DNA of 64,000 bases from a bacterium (GTDB lineage: Bacteria > Planctomycetota > Planctomycetia > Pirellulales > Pirellulaceae): NCBI GenBank assembly GCA_030430075.1, contig JAUIGN010000006.1, positions 248,001 through 312,000 on the forward strand, read 5' to 3'. Of the stretch, positions 4,634-54,532 are shown piece by piece. Each line of letters begins with the position of its first letter. The first letter of the stretch is position 1. The notes under the pieces are model-generated. The model was given only the letters and a program-made list of their open reading frames with translations, was not told where the DNA came from and made no database searches. The position numbers and the translations under genes are program-made.

Positions 4634-5908
4634 ATGAATTCGACTCACTGCTCGTATCCCGTATTGCTCCGAACCATGCGGTTGCCGACCGTTGTCCTGA
4701 CGCTGTTGATGGCGTCGGCCTCCAGCGGCCGCGCTGACGAGACCGCCCGGCCGCTGGTTGCCTATGTCGGAACGTACACATCTCCGTTGAAGAACATGCG
4801 GCCGACGCAGGTCGATTTGCCACCCGGTAACGGCCGCGGCATTCATCTTTTCACCGTGGATCGTGTCAGCGGCGCGATGGAACCGTACGGCTTGTACGAG
4901 ATGGGGACCAGTCCCAGTGCGCTCGCCTTCAGCGCCGACGGCACGCGGCTGTACTCGGCCAACGAAACCGAACGCACCGGGCCAAACGAGGCCGGCTCGG
5001 TGAGCGCATTCGCCGTCGACCCGCTGACGGGCAAGCTGAAGCTGTTGAATTCGGTGAGCTCGTTGGGAAAAGGGCCGGCCCACCTCAGCGTCCATCCTTC
5101 GGGCCGCTTTGTCCTGGTGGCGAATTACTTTGGCGGGTCGGTCGCCGTCCTGCCCATCCGACGCGACGGAAGCCTCGGCGCGGCTACGGACTTTCAACAG
5201 GATGCCGGACAGGTTGGCCCGACCAAAGCGCCCCATGCGCCGCCCGGCAGTTTCGCCTTCAGCGGGCACGATCAGCCGCATGCCCACATGATCGAATCCG
5301 ATCCGACCGGCAAGTTCGTGCTGCACGTCGATTTGGGGTTGGACAAGATCTTTGTTTGGAAGTTTGATGCCGAGCTCGGCAAGTTGACGGCCAATGAACC
5401 AGCCTCGGTCGCGCTACCCCCGGGAGACGGGCCCCGACATTTCCACTTTCATCCCCGGGGCCGCTGGTTGTACTCACTGCAGGAGGAAGGCTCGACGATC
5501 GTCCTCTTCGACTACGATGCGGCCGCGGGACGGCTCACCGCACGGCAGACGATTTCCAGCCTGCCGCCCGGCTACGCCGGCAGTAACTTCTGTTCGGGGA
5601 TTCTGGTCTCCGAGGACGGTCGCTTTGTCTATGTCGGAAACCGCTTGCACGACAGTATCGGCATCTTCGCCGTCGGTGAGGACGGCCAACTGTCGTTTGT
5701 GGCCGACGAATGGACACGGGGCAACTATCCGCGCAGCTTCAGTTTCGATCCAACCGGTAACTTCCTCTATTCGTGCAATCAGCGCGCGGACAATATTGCC
5801 GTCTTTCGCGTCGATCGGGCCGCTGGGAAGCTGCAGTTCACCGGACATTACACGCCGGTCGGCAATCCGTCGCAGATCGTGTTCCTGGATCTGCAGGGGG
5901 CGAAGTAA
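4634..5908 (+). CDS. Secreted lactonase-family seven-bladed beta-propeller
   Basis: A 424-residue protein of the 6-phosphogluconolactonase (Pgl/YbhE-type) propeller family. The mature part opens with VAYVGTYTS, typical of the first blade, and repeats the signatures PSALAFSADGTRLYSAN, PAHLSVHPSGRFVLVANY, GPRHFHFHPRGRWLYSL and YPRSFSFDPTGNFLYSCNQ, so the whole barrel is present. A signal peptide (MRLPTVVLTLLMASAS) begins at the second Met, coordinate 4676; this may be the true start, as neither site has a strong Shine-Dalgarno sequence. Export argues against a role in the cytoplasmic pentose phosphate pathway; in planctomycetes these paralogues are numerous and mostly uncharacterised. Dispersed repeat copy A1 lies about 80 bases downstream. 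Confidence 0.88.
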   Translation: MNSTHCSYPVLLRTMRLPTVVLTLLMASASSGRADETARPLVAYVGTYTSPLKNMRPTQVDLPPGNGRGIHLFTVDRVSGAMEPYGLYEMGTSPSALAFSADGTRLYSANETERTGPNEAGSVSAFAVDPLTGKLKLLNSVSSLGKGPAHLSVHPSGRFVLVANYFGGSVAVLPIRRDGSLGAATDFQQDAGQVGPTKAPHAPPGSFAFSGHDQPHAHMIESDPTGKFVLHVDLGLDKIFVWKFDAELGKLTANEPASVALPPGDGPRHFHFHPRGRWLYSLQEEGSTIVLFDYDAAAGRLTARQTISSLPPGYAGSNFCSGILVSEDGRFVYVGNRLHDSIGIFAVGEDGQLSFVADEWTRGNYPRSFSFDPTGNFLYSCNQRADNIAVFRVDRAAGKLQFTGHYTPVGNPSQIVFLDLQGAK

Positions 5909-5990
5909 CGCTGGTCGTAGCTGTTCGCCGTGGCGCTTGGCAGCGGTCCGAGCGACCGGTTGCCGGTCTTGCGCGCGGTTCTGGTGACTT

Positions 5991-6193
5991 GGGGGAGACC
6001 TTCGGTCGGCGGTTTCGGCGGGGTCGGAGACCCGCGCCGAACAGGGGAGAGCCGCGCCGAACAGGGGAGACCCGCGCCGAACAGGGGAGAGCCGCGCCGA
6101 ACAGGGGAGACCCGCGCCGAACAGGGGAGACCCGCGCCGAACAGCGGAGACCTGCGCCGAACAGCGGAGACCTGCGCCGAGCAGCATCGCGCG
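5991..6193 (+). repeat. Dispersed element A, copy 1: core plus eight 20-bp tandem units
   Basis: The copy starts with GGGGGAGACCTTCGGTCGG, continues through a GGCGGTTTCGGCGGGGTC core and then has eight head-to-tail 20-base units beginning GCGCCGAACAGGGGAGA at 6034, 6054, 6074, 6094, 6114, 6134, 6154 and 6174. The last two units carry AGCGGAGACCT variants. The core recurs at 8.1, 14.2, 39.3 and 54.5 kb in this window. The array is intergenic, about 80 bases beyond the lactonase stop. Translations across it (RAEQGRPAPNRGE-type repeats) are artefacts. The rest of 5909-6407 holds nothing else that I recognise. Confidence 0.9.
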
Positions 6194-6407
6194 GTGCGGG
6201 GGATCGGAATTCCGGCCGCGCCGCGGCGAGAGGTTGCCAGTCATACGGGTTGTGACGAGCCTGTTTTCGTGATCTTTTTCCAACCGCCGGGAAACGCTGC
6301 AGAAACGCTTGCGGGATCGGCCATCGTTGGTACAGTCGGGACTTAGGCCAACCTCGCGTTGTGAATGAGGGGGCCGTGTCGTCCGCCACGTTCAGGTAGC
6401 TCTCCAA

Positions 6408-6980
6408 ATGCCGCTCCCCCAGCTCCCCAACGCCGACGAAGTCGAACATCTGATGCTCAACGCCCGGTTGCGCGACGAGCTCGAACCGTATCTGGACGAG
6501 TCCGTCGATCTGCTCAACACGCGGCGCTTGCCCACCCCGGTAGAGAATGAATTTCTGGCCTCCATGTTGGCCTGGGAACGGGCCCCGGTGTTGCCGATCG
6601 GCCAGTGGTTTCATCCGGAACTCACCCTGGCACATCCCGATTCGCTGGATGACGAGCAACTACACGACAAGCTGTGGGAGACGATTCAGCAACTTTATGA
6701 CGTCCGGATCGTCCTTGACTTTACCGACCACCTTTCCGATCGTCAGCTCTACACGTTGATCTTCCGAGACATTCTTCCCTCGCCCGAAAAAAAGGTCGAC
6801 CTGCCCAAGAACTTCCTGCACTGGCATTGCCTGGACTACAGCGACGAACCCGAAACGTGGTTGCGTTACTATGCCAACGAGCGGGAAAGAAAGGAATGGT
6901 ACGCCGAAACGGGCCTGCCATTGCCCAAGTCCGAGCAGCCCCCGTTCGCTCGGAAGATGCCGCGGCGCCCCTCGCCGTAG
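6408..6980 (+). CDS. Conserved-looking hypothetical protein
   Basis: A 190-residue protein I cannot place in a family. It is coherent over its length: acidic-aromatic, no signal peptide, no membrane segment, with stretches such as LLNTRRLPTPVENEFLASML, FHPELTLAHPDSLDDEQLH, LHWHCLDYSDEPETWLRYY and a basic Pro-rich tail. Codon use is ordinary GC-rich coding, and third-position bias supports the frame. The start at 6408 (MPLPQLPNADEVEHLM) is the first Met after an upstream stop; the next Met is at residue 16. It stands alone between repeat copy A1 and the convergent rtcA gene, with only 31 bases between the two stops. A cytoplasmic role is likely, but no function is proposed. Confidence 0.75.
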   Translation: MPLPQLPNADEVEHLMLNARLRDELEPYLDESVDLLNTRRLPTPVENEFLASMLAWERAPVLPIGQWFHPELTLAHPDSLDDEQLHDKLWETIQQLYDVRIVLDFTDHLSDRQLYTLIFRDILPSPEKKVDLPKNFLHWHCLDYSDEPETWLRYYANERERKEWYAETGLPLPKSEQPPFARKMPRRPSP

Positions 6981-7011
6981 CGCGCCGATCAGCGGCTGGT
7001 CCGCCGGCCGG

Positions 7012-8046
7012 TCAACCGCGGATGCGAACCTCGACCGTCTCCGCGGGGGCGTCGGTCACCTCGATCTGCACGTTCAGGAACATACGAATGACGTCCAGGT
7101 GCGTGCGTGCATGCGCGGTCAGTGCCGTGGTGCGGAACGTACCGCCGCCGGCGCCCAGGTGTGCGCTGATGGCCAGGGGTAAGCAGATCTGGTCGGCCAG
7201 GAGAGGTTCCACGGGCGCTTCGGTCAGCAGGTAGTCACTCGCTTGTTGCCAGGCTTCGAGCGCCACCTGTTCAGCCGGTTTTCCGCGTTCGCCGAACCCG
7301 CTGAAGACGGTGGTGACGTTCTCGCAGTGGAGCGTCAGCAAGACGACGTTTCCCGGTCCCTTCGTCCCTTCGGCCCGTTCCACCACCAATGCGCCGGGCG
7401 GCCAATCGACGCGGGCGGCGATCGTGGCGCATTCTCGCTCGGCAATATGTTGAGGTAGCCTGGCGACGATCGCTCGGACCCTGGCCTCAACGAGATTGCC
7501 CCGTTCATGGAGGGCGAATGGCTGCCAACGGCTGGCTGGACGAATCGAGGCGGTCAACTCGCCACCGCCGGCGGGATAGAATCCCGGCCGGATCAGTTCC
7601 ACGTCGACCTGGGGGCCGATCCGGGCGAGCAGCGGCAAGTAGCTGTCGCGAAGAAACTCGAAGGGCGGCGCATGCGAATTGTGCGTCCCCCCGCCCAAGA
7701 CAAGCGACGATGGGCCGTCGGCGAGCATCAGGGCGGGCAAGACCGTCTGCAACACCAAGGTGGCACTTCCGGCGGTCGTCATGGGGAAGCGATACTCGCC
7801 CGGCTGCACCGCCTCCGGCTGGAAGGTGAACCGGGTGCTCCCCAGCGCTGCGCCGCTCAACGTCGCGCCGCTGATCTTGCGCGCCGCCCGGGCTGCGGTC
7901 ACGTGCTGCCGCATCAGCCCCGGTTTCGCTCGCCCAGCCCGAATCCGGCGAATCGTGAACGGCTTTCCGGTGACCAGCGACAGTGCCAGGGACGAGCGAA
8001 CAATCTGCCCACCACCTTCGCCTTGTGAACCGTCGATCTCGATCAT
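7012..8046 (-). CDS. rtcA: RNA 3'-terminal phosphate cyclase
   Basis: RtcA converts RNA 3'-phosphate ends to 2',3'-cyclic phosphate using ATP through an enzyme-AMP intermediate. The 344-residue length matches the family. IEIDGSQGEGGGQIVRSSLA at the N-terminus is the Gly-rich nucleotide-binding segment, and the C-terminal TALTAHARTHLDVIRMFL aligns with the SSHTQTN region of E. coli RtcA, placing the catalytic His at residue 312. I start at the ATG at 8046. The frame runs 55 codons further, but that part translates repeat copy A2 (LIARRGS repeats) and is not coding. No rtcB ligase or rtcR regulator is nearby. The repeat begins about 50 bases upstream of the start codon and so occupies the promoter region. 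Confidence 0.93.
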   Translation of the reverse strand: MIEIDGSQGEGGGQIVRSSLALSLVTGKPFTIRRIRAGRAKPGLMRQHVTAARAARKISGATLSGAALGSTRFTFQPEAVQPGEYRFPMTTAGSATLVLQTVLPALMLADGPSSLVLGGGTHNSHAPPFEFLRDSYLPLLARIGPQVDVELIRPGFYPAGGGELTASIRPASRWQPFALHERGNLVEARVRAIVARLPQHIAERECATIAARVDWPPGALVVERAEGTKGPGNVVLLTLHCENVTTVFSGFGERGKPAEQVALEAWQQASDYLLTEAPVEPLLADQICLPLAISAHLGAGGGTFRTTALTAHARTHLDVIRMFLNVQIEVTDAPAETVEVRIRG

Positions 8047-8096
8047 GGTGTTGCGAGCTGCTGGGGGGTGGGGCGGTACGCCCTGGTGGACAACGT

Positions 8097-8320
8097 GGGG
8101 GAGACCTTCGGTCGGCGGTTTCGGCGGGGTCAGAGACCCGCGCCGAGCAATGAGAGACCCGCGCCGAGCAATGAGAGACCCGCGCCGAGCAATGAGAGAC
8201 GCGCCGAGCACTTGTGGGGCGCGGGTCGCGCTACGCGCTGTGCGCGGGTCGCGCTACGCGCTGTGCGCGGGTCTCCGACCCCGCACACTGGCCGACCGAA
8301 GGTCTCCCCCCTCGCTGCCC
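8097..8320. repeat. Dispersed element A, copy 2: long palindrome with inverted ends
   Basis: The left end reads GGGGGAGACCTTCGGTCGGC and the right end GCCGACCGAAGGTCTCCCCC, a perfect 20-base inverted terminal repeat. The inner flanks (GGGGTCAGAGACCCGCGC on the left, GCGCGGGTCTCCGACCCC on the right) continue the symmetry. Between them are three 21-base units of GACCCGCGCCGAGCAATGAGA type and two units of GCGCGGGTCGCGCTACGCGC type. It lies between the divergently oriented ends of rtcA (its upstream side) and the stop of the SpoIIE phosphatase. No ORF within it encodes a transposase, so it looks like a small non-autonomous element. The remainder of 8047-8402 shows nothing else. Confidence 0.85.
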
Positions 8321-8402
8321 CCAGTCCCCCATGCTCTCCGCCAGCCCCCCAACTCCCTTCCAGAGCCAAGCCGGCGGGTAAAGGTTCGCCGCGCGTCCGC
8401 AA

Positions 8403-9599
8403 TCAGCCTTCCTTGTGACGCTCCAGCAGCACGACCGACGTGTCGTCGTGTCGGCCGCTCCCGCGCGTCGCGGCGTTGGAATCGTCGAACAGTTTCTGCA
8501 GGGCATCTGCCAGGGGCATTTCGCGAGATGCCTGCATCGACTTGATGATGCCTTCGATACCGAATTGCTCGGCATCTTCTTCGTCGGCGGGAAAGGCTTC
8601 GTCGAGCCCATCGGTGAAGATCAGCAGCCGCGAGTTTCGCGGGATCTCCATTTCAACTTCCTCGTAGACCCACTCTTCCTCGATCGCCAGGGGCAAGCCG
8701 CCTTCGTCTTCGCCGCCCATGACTTTGACTTCATTGGTGTCCAGATCCTGCAGGACCGGCATTGGTGCGCCGGCGGCGGTCCAGCTCAACCGGTGGTTCT
8801 CCAGGTCCAGGGTCGAGTAGAGCAGGGTGATAAACCCGCCCTCGTCCTGCACGATGTCGCTCGAACAGAGCCGCCGATTCACTTCGGAGACAAAGTCGAC
8901 CGTGTTCGGATACCGGCGATCGCGGATCATCCGGATCAGCGTGTGCATGGTCATGATCGACATACACGCTTTCACGCCGTGTCCCGACGCATCCCCGACC
9001 AAGAGGATCAACTTGTTTCCATCCAGGTTGAACGCATCGTAGTAGTCACCGCCGGCCATGATGACCGGGTTGCTACCCATGACGCGAATCTGTGAAGGTT
9101 CGTAACGGGCCACGATCTCGTAGCCTTCCGGTGCGGGCAGGTCACGTGGGATCACCGATTCCTGCAGACGTCGGACCGAGTCCACTTCTTCGCGCAGTCG
9201 CTCGGCCAGGATCCGCGATCGTTGGGCCAGAACTGCCGTTTGGGCTGCTTCAATCATGGATGGCAAGAGGAAGATGAAGTCCCCTTCGGTGTCCCGCATC
9301 AGGTGCGAGTGCAGGCCGTGCGAAATCAGTTTGGCGAGATGGCTGAAGTCACCCTGGCGCCAAGCTCCCACGATCGGGATGTTGTCGTGCGTCTCCTGGA
9401 TCTTCAGAAACAGACGCAGCGATTCATCTTCGTTGGGGAAGTTGGTCGCAAACAGGACGATGTCCCAGCCGGCGGAAGTCAGCTTCTCCTCGAAATCTTC
9501 ACCCTCTGTTGAGATTTCAACAACGGTGTCGTCCACATTGAGAATCAGTCCGATCGTTTCGGCTTCAATCGCGTCGTCCCAGCCCACCAACACTCGCAT
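8403..9599 (-). CDS. SpoIIE/PP2C-type phosphatase with degenerate receiver-like domain
   Basis: A 398-residue soluble protein. Residues 1-125 (MRVLVGWDDAIEAETIGLIL onward) look like a response-regulator fold, but I do not see the usual acidic pair plus phosphorylatable Asp clearly, so it may be a pseudo-receiver. A short coiled coil (RILAERLREEVDSVRRLQES) leads into a SpoIIE/PP2C_SIG domain at about 155-395, with metal-site motifs AGGDYYDAF, LVGDASGHGV, IFTDGLDEA and the terminal GRHDDTSVVLL. Such proteins are RsbU-like Ser/Thr phosphatases that control anti-sigma or partner-switching systems. AGGA lies about nine bases upstream of the ATG. It stands alone, with no anti-sigma kinase beside it. 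Confidence 0.9.
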   Translation of the reverse strand: MRVLVGWDDAIEAETIGLILNVDDTVVEISTEGEDFEEKLTSAGWDIVLFATNFPNEDESLRLFLKIQETHDNIPIVGAWRQGDFSHLAKLISHGLHSHLMRDTEGDFIFLLPSMIEAAQTAVLAQRSRILAERLREEVDSVRRLQESVIPRDLPAPEGYEIVARYEPSQIRVMGSNPVIMAGGDYYDAFNLDGNKLILLVGDASGHGVKACMSIMTMHTLIRMIRDRRYPNTVDFVSEVNRRLCSSDIVQDEGGFITLLYSTLDLENHRLSWTAAGAPMPVLQDLDTNEVKVMGGEDEGGLPLAIEEEWVYEEVEMEIPRNSRLLIFTDGLDEAFPADEEDAEQFGIEGIIKSMQASREMPLADALQKLFDDSNAATRGSGRHDDTSVVLLERHKEG

Positions 9600-14152: not shown

Positions 14153-14250
14153 TGCTCGGCGCGGGTCCACATCTGCTCGGCGCGGGTCCACAACTGCTCG
14201 GCGCGGGTCTCCGACCCCGCCGAAACCGCCGACCGAAGGTCTCCCCCCAC
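14153..14250 (-). repeat. Dispersed element A, copy 3: solo right end with three 21-bp units
   Basis: Three units starting TGCTCGGCGCGGGTC at 14153, 14174 and 14195 are followed by CCCCGCCGAAACCGCCGACC and GAAGGTCTCCCCCC. This is the reverse complement of the core of copies 1 and 5, without the opposite terminal end. It starts 24 bases after the DUF11 gene stop. Confidence 0.88.
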
Positions 14251-24804: not shown

Positions 24805-24877
24805 TTCCGTAGGTCATGCTGTGCATGACATTCCGTACTTCCCCAGGAATTTGTCATGCACTGCATGACCTACGGAA
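24805..24877. repeat. Dispersed repeat C: large inverted pair between convergent genes
   Basis: TTCCGTAGGTCATGCTGTGC with ATGACA (24805-24830) is matched, with one mismatch, by its reverse complement at 24852-24877, leaving a 21-base loop. Each arm is itself nearly palindromic (GTCATGC-TGT-GCATGAC). It sits between the stops of the GH105 fusion and pdxH, so it could act as a bidirectional terminator. Related copies are at 39.5-39.7 kb. Confidence 0.85.
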
Positions 24878-39280: not shown

Positions 39281-39408
39281 CCACCGCTCGGCGCGGGTCT
39301 CTGACCACCGCTCGCCGCGGGTCTCCAACCACCGCTCGGCGCGGGTCTCTGACCACCGCTCGGCGCGGGTCTCTGACCCCGCCGAAACCGCCGACCGCAG
39401 GTCTCCAC
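39281..39408 (-). repeat. Dispersed element A, copy 4: solo right end with four 24-bp units
   Basis: Four 24-base units (CCACCGCTCGGCGCGGGTCT plus CTGA) at 39281, 39305, 39329 and 39353 run into CCCCGCCGAAACCGCCGACC and GCAGGTCTCCA. The core is the same as in copies 1-3 and 5; the unit period differs. It lies in the gap between the second GspE gene and PilC. The gap 39167-39777 otherwise holds repeat C copies. Confidence 0.88.
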
Positions 39409-39524: not shown

Positions 39525-39664
39525 CTTCCGCAGGTCATGCGATGCATGAGACTTTCTCGTCTTCCTCCTTCGTACGGTCGGCGTGGATTCCGGCATGCAC
39601 AGCATGCCCTACAGAGCCTCATCGGCGATCTTCTTTCCCTTCCGTAGGTCATGCTGTGCATGAC
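39525..39664. repeat. Dispersed repeat C, three copies
   Basis: CTTCCGCAGGTCATGCGATG (from 39525), CGGCATGCACAGCATGCCCT (from 39591, inverted) and TCCGTAGGTCATGCTGTGCA (from 39641) match the GTAGGTCATGCTGTGCATGAC family seen at 24.8 kb. They lie just upstream of the PilC gene, together with copy A4. Confidence 0.75.
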
Positions 39665-54479: not shown

Positions 54480-54532
54480 GGGGAGACCTTCGGTCGGCGG
54501 TTTCGGCGGGGTCGGAGACCCGCGCCGAGCAA
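54480..54532 (+). repeat. Dispersed element A, copy 5: solo left end
   Basis: GGGGAGACCTTCGGTCGGCG, then GTTTCGGCGGGGTCGGAGAC and CCGCGCCGAGCA are identical to copy 1 except for the tail; only a degenerate GCGCCGCGTAGATCG follows instead of a tandem array. It lies in the 280-base convergent gap between the alpha/beta hydrolase and pncC stops. Confidence 0.88.

Follow-up and report, generated by a model that had tools for sequence, protein, structure and literature searches.

Our analyses indicate that the palindromic element at positions 8100-8307 of the window (the whole stretch of 64,000 nucleotides analysed here, G000:C48:248001-312000, part of a 9.24-Mb draft genome in 101 contigs, G000) very probably belongs to a REP/REPIN family, that is, a family of double-hairpin extragenic repeats using in trans a REP-associated tyrosine transposase (RAYT) of the HuH-Y1 type, whose gene lies outside the window at C8:200476-201021 of G000. 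The family is new, but it is of the known REP/REPIN class and not an unknown mobile element. Judging from the sequence comparisons presented here, the several hundred elements of G000 were most likely spread by this single REP transposase encoded elsewhere in the genome.

The earlier note on this DNA had described a MITE-like repeat whose ends recur in both orientations and always between genes. The recurrence was borne out: the core GGCGGTTTCGGCGGGGTC has five exact matches in the window, at 6008(+), 8114(+), 14213(-), 39375(-) and 54496(+), and seven when up to three mismatches are allowed (0.31 expected; seven were reached in 0 of 100 shuffles), while throughout G000 it has 183 exact copies, 95 in forward and 88 in reverse orientation; the reversed-pattern control matched nowhere. 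A search with 37 nt of the repeat unit, hereafter the head, yielded 347 near copies in the genome at three mismatches or fewer. The dispersed repeat in G000 is real and far above chance. The placement between genes held as well: in about 1.1 Mb of G000 all 98 heads of one count lay outside called genes, and none of the 101 heads of either subtype in a second count fell inside one, the genes being our own calls from a simple codon-usage gene caller. The heads are short palindromic extragenic repeats in high copy number, as is characteristic of REP/REPIN elements. A search of Rfam with positions 5800-8500 of the window gave no match.

Alignment of 71 copies defined a 49-nt block with sharp edges, GGAGACCTNCGGTCGGCGGTTTCGGCGGGGTCRGAGACCCGCGCCGAGC, which begins with GGAGACC-TNC-GGTC, continues through a linker into a covarying stem around GGTC-RGA-GACC, and ends in ARC. 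With regard to target-site duplications, the flanks of these copies are unrelated to one another, save for a weak G-rich GGRRKK just upstream. Each head folds into two hairpins, one small (GACC-TNC-GGTC) and the other larger and bulged (hairpin 2; TCGGCG GGGTC-RGA-GACCC G CGCCGA), and the stem of the latter occurs in versions in which both sides change together (TCGGCG/CGCCGA, TGTGCG/CGCACA, AATGCG/CGCATA and GGGGCG/CGCCCA), the pair at the base of its GGTC likewise being G-C, A-T or T-A. Among 35 distinct sequences, 91% of the cells of hairpin 2 were paired and 39 cells carried double changes against 14.1 in shuffles, a signal that disappeared when the partner was slid; the shuffles leave the relatedness of the sequences in, and the slid-partner control keeps it. 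Because the stems covary, the hairpin is kept by selection, as in REP/REPIN elements. In the genomes of genus g10 (L091-L110, L116, L126) the head sits within longer arms, GAGGCGGTAACAARACNGG ... CCGTTTTGTTACCGCCTC, giving a hairpin of about 95 nt.

The 20-nt arms of the element at 8100-8307, copy 2 of the window (8097-8116 and 8291-8310, with 174 nt between them), are indeed 100% complementary, as the earlier note had it, and the inverted ends stand; the conserved unit starts at GGAGACC (8100) and not at the preceding GGG. Copy 2 is composed of two heads of different subtypes, A and B, lying tail to tail, although inverted pairs are usually head-to-head, and its inverted ends correspond to the opening bases that all heads conserve, what had been taken for the right terminal inverted repeat being the 5' end of head B. 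The inner flanks, described before as symmetric, are two independent tandem arrays, and each supposed solo core is a complete 49-nt head with an array of its own behind it, the one at 54.5 kb being degenerate.

Table 1. Heads and tandem arrays of the family in the window.
Feature	Positions	Strand	Basis
Copy 1, head A	5994..6042	+	
Copy 1, array of 8 units, spacer AGGGGA / AGCGGA	6026..6184	+	
Copy 2, head A, GGAGACCTTCGGTCGGCGGTTTCGGCGGGGTCAGAGACCCGCGCCGAGC	8100..8148	+	Sequence; edges from 71-copy consensus
Copy 2, array of head A, spacer AATGAGA	8132..8210	+	Period-21 repeats, spacer listing
Copy 2, array of head B, unit GACCCGCGCACAGC + GCGTAGCGC, period 23	8214..8275	-	Sequence, repeats
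Copy 2, head B, stem TGTGCG/CGCACA, tail to tail with head A	8260..8307	-	
Copy 3, head A, array of 3 units down to ~14148	14196..14244	-	
Copy 4, head A, array of 4 units down to ~39285	39358..39406	-	
Copy 5, head A, degenerate array to ~54610	54482..54530	+	

The suggested decay into half-elements finds a parallel in the REP singlets of Pseudomonas fluorescens SBW25, which are regarded as defunct REPIN remnants (PMC3116915), but the heads themselves are not incomplete halves, single heads being complete units with sharp boundaries. G001, a genome of the same genus, has an orthologous gap between an RNA-cyclase gene and a SpoIIE-domain gene that is much shorter and does not contain the copy 2 element, and this gap has diverged to the point that the junction at the empty site is not readable. 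The gene directly beside copy 2 in the window (7012-8046, minus strand) encodes an RNA 3'-terminal phosphate cyclase of the RtcA family (PF01137).

The 101 heads found in about 1.1 Mb of G000 divide into 88 of subtype A and 13 of subtype B. All 11 head-to-head pairs in this sample unite an A with a B, and the other pairs are seven head-to-tail and four tail-to-tail. Head-to-head is also the predominant arrangement of close pairs elsewhere, with 14 of 16 in G001 and 25 of 35 in named MAGs, and a head-to-head pair folds far better than its own shuffles (z = -8.2). The head-to-head A+B pair corresponds to the REPIN arrangement, in which the inverted pair is the higher unit; most heads of G000 are nevertheless single.

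Genes lying between ten close head pairs carried no Pfam transposase domain, and one of them, L061:476-1021 (= C8:200476-201021), later turned out to be the RAYT. An early hint pointed away from RAYTs: the Pfam model Y1_Tnp (PF01797) found between 9 and 12 HuH genes in G000, none with heads beside it, and no gene between heads in the head-bearing genomes, because this model misses or under-scores the cognate RAYTs. A looser transposase profile identified a gene exactly between two inverted heads in a Gemmataceae MAG (L390) and likewise in a MAG labelled Anaerolineaceae, Chloroflexota (L365), the two proteins being 48% identical. Searching with both proteins led to the G000 counterpart, which matched at 231.9 bits, while a second, different RAYT of the same genome reached 42.6 bits. 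The counterpart, a protein of 181 aa, is encoded between two A/B head-to-head pairs and, although it received no label from Pfam, the NCBIfam model REP_Tyr_transpos recognises it as a REP-associated tyrosine transposase (92.4 bits; cut-off 80). A transposase matching the repeat, for which the earlier note had advised looking, is present in G000 in the form of this RAYT between two head pairs.

At the class level, 11 of 398 genomes searched contained this head-linked RAYT subfamily, with one strong match per genome, and the cognate RAYT is a single-copy gene, as in REP/REPIN-RAYT systems. All finds together amount to 15 intact members and one broken member (G270 and G452, which have an identical RAYT gene at the same contig position, were counted once); the intact members come from planctomycetes, one MAG labelled Verrucomicrobia and one labelled Anaerolineaceae. 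Head hairpins, some partly degenerate or interrupted, stand on both sides of the RAYT in 15 of 15 intact members, while a complete head was found within about 1.5 kb of only one of 138 other HuH-transposase loci, some of them overlapping. The RAYT gene is adjacent to the same repeats, again as in the REP/REPIN-RAYT class. A quick tree placed the head-flanked RAYTs on one side of a weakly supported branch (one change; 13.8 in shuffles). Another RAYT of G000, on C101, adjoins GTAG-type REPs and not heads, and was used as positive control for the method. Several head-bearing genomes, among them G001, G010, G225 and G226, yielded no cognate RAYT; some of these are incomplete, and in the others the heads may be orphan repeats. 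Long TnpA-like proteins of G001, G226 and G000 (346-400 aa, YVDLNP type) were discarded as candidates, having no heads beside them, and so was a Fuerstiella transposase, which has its own repeat, GTTTAACCCGTGGTCGCAGACCAGG.

We propose that the RAYT would recognise the head as folded single-stranded DNA and would move head-to-head A+B pairs, the REPINs. Many copies would then persist as single heads or as pairs that have been rearranged, of which the tail-to-tail element at 8100-8307 is an example. Following insertion, the 3' arm of the larger hairpin, together with a few bases of neighbouring DNA, would often undergo tandem copying, for which slippage at the hairpin is the probable mechanism.

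The arrays in fact follow most copies: 49 of 61 in G000 have at least two units behind them, each unit consisting of the 3' arm of hairpin 2 (GACCCGCGCCGAGC) and a spacer, mostly about 4-17 nt long, that recurs from unit to unit but differs from one locus to another. This locus specificity shows that the arrays arose locally, presumably once the head had inserted, and slippage at the hairpin would explain them most simply. The same REP family could have had its arrays built by the RAYT itself, through cutting and rejoining instead of replication slippage, and the exact start of the arrays at the 3' part of the head, their presence behind most copies and their locus-specific spacers would all agree with this. 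We consider it unlikely, since the point at which the unit restarts differs among loci (RGAGACC, GACC and others), as slippage predicts, and since there is precedent for REP/REPIN tandem arrays in which flanking sequence is included (PMC3116915). We give an equally low probability to a broader proposal, in which a RAYT lineage across Planctomycetota, and in single MAGs labelled Verrucomicrobia and Chloroflexota, would read a two-hairpin REP through a guide other than GTAG, perhaps GGAG, with an activity that also builds the locus-specific arrays. If the RAYT did build the arrays, the enzyme would generate repeats as well as disperse them. At another locus (L079 10064-10392, G000:C4:370064-370409) a unit of about 107 bp is present four times in tandem, each time with a GGAGACC head and a GTAG-type REP, both REP families being joined in one locally amplified unit.

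Several points count against a REP family mobilised by a RAYT, namely that neither the GTAG nor the CGTC tag is present, that some head-bearing genomes yielded no cognate RAYT, that most G000 heads are unpaired and that divergence has made the junction at the empty site in G001 unreadable. The heads might instead be structural or regulatory repeats of the host under selection (nucleoid or gyrase sites, transcript 3' ends or terminators), to which the RAYT link would be secondary. Their strong hairpins and purely intergenic location fit such a role, and so does the distribution of 62 placed heads over gap types (32 tandem, 21 convergent and 9 divergent), in which convergent gaps, about 16% of the intergenic length, are over-used and divergent gaps, about 30%, under-used. 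However, avoidance of promoters is equally expected of a tolerated mobile repeat, relatives differ widely in copy number, some having hundreds and others none, and heads flank the RAYT in every intact case, all of which makes a host role very improbable. The placed heads of G000 also show no orientation bias with respect to transcription (17 versus 15), and on this ground we rejected the reading of heads as terminators. Least credible of all is the view that the repeat is a MITE whose ancestor was a classical insertion sequence bounded by 20-bp terminal inverted repeats and whose copies have for the most part decayed to half-elements, which we regard as highly improbable: the perfect inverted ends of copy 2 and the dispersed non-coding copies would suit it, but the unit is the single head, complete and sharply bounded, and is not delimited by the inverted repeats, those ends come from two different subtypes each with its own array, and the genes between close heads, with the exception of the RAYT, are housekeeping genes. 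From the initial description, a non-coding, dispersed, intergenic, palindromic, non-autonomous and probably mobile family survives, and the MITE with 20-bp terminal inverted repeats does not.

A generalised pattern of the head found the family, among the matches listed, in planctomycetes (Pirellulales, Gemmataceae and others) and in MAGs labelled, as deposited, Verrucomicrobia, Chloroflexota, Armatimonadetes and Abditibacteriales. The search of related planctomycete genomes suggested earlier was in this sense positive, with the very uneven copy number already mentioned. The matches in two of these MAGs are not single stray ones, since the one labelled Anaerolineaceae contains 14 copies, which form a subtype of their own, and the one labelled Armatimonadetes contains nine. 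Other REP-like families were encountered. A second dispersed palindrome of the window, GTAGGTCATGCTGTGCATGAC (24809-24873 and 39592-39664; four matches in the window, none expected), is a GTAG-type REP whose likely RAYT, at G000:C101:4118-4558, has copies on both sides. In the Fuerstiella MAG (L360 712-1965) a different HuH transposase of 206 aa lies between 30-bp inverted repeats, TTGTTTAACCCGTGGTCGCAGACCAGG, which represent another REP-like family with a GGTC-GCA-GACC hairpin, and in G229 (L294 1180-1905) a truncated TnpA-like gene beside several GAGCCCCAAGCGTAAGCGCGGGG palindromes marks a further planctomycete REP-like family.

These results define the boundary and the structure of a planctomycete repeat family and provide its cognate enzyme, and REP/RAYT pairs that lack the GTAG tag, have two hairpins and pair as heterodimers extend beyond one phylum. 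The covarying stems and matched RAYTs make the rule of RAYT recognition directly testable, and in the arrays, through their locus-specific spacers, tandem duplication next to hairpins has left a natural local record.

The open literature searched on these hairpins and on REPs of planctomycetes named no planctomycete family with this sequence, in agreement with the earlier note, and gave no description of the head family, although subscription journals may contain one. Fungal mitochondrial DNA contains double-hairpin elements that are mobile and made of two adjacent hairpins; they are organellar, are not known to have any RAYT link, and share with the heads a resemblance only. Much closer is the REPIN/RAYT system of P. 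fluorescens SBW25 (Bertels and Rainey 2011), in which hundreds of inverted REP pairs lie outside genes, a RAYT stands beside each type and tandem arrays include flanks (PMC3116915), all of which is found here. Unlike SBW25 REPINs, the heads have two hairpins and start with GGAGACC without GTAG, their head-to-head pairs are A+B heterodimers, and arrays stand behind most single units. The GTAG and CGTC REP superfamilies (Di Nocera et al. 2013; PMC3733652) also consist of short stem-loops, with head-to-head dimers predominating and often being heterodimers, and the heads resemble both in forming short stem-loops and head-to-head heterodimers. The 5' GTAG (or GTGG) tag at the hairpin foot of the former, whose repeats RAYTs adjoin (PMC3733652), is absent from the 49-nt consensus, and so are the CGTC end and CCA tail of the latter, which is characterised by a terminal CGTC tag, a stem of 8-9 bp, a CCA tail and no transposase (PMC3733652); unlike CGTC REPs, the heads are RAYT-linked. 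Because both tags are absent, the consensus places the head family outside the two superfamilies. As for the enzyme, TnpA-Y1 subclass 2.6 / RAYT group 5, reported mainly from Bacteroidetes, has atypical secondary structures, the motifs NH[LIV]H, WQ and YIH[QN]NP and about 179 aa (PMC6006769). The Anaerolineaceae RAYT fits these motifs and this length (NHLH, WQ, YIHQNP, 187 aa) and the planctomycete RAYTs come close (THLH, WQ, YLHxNP, about 181 aa), so that membership, compared by published motifs only, is a lead. Those defining features of the REP/REPIN-RAYT class that were tested (PMC3116915, PMC6006769) are all present in the head family.
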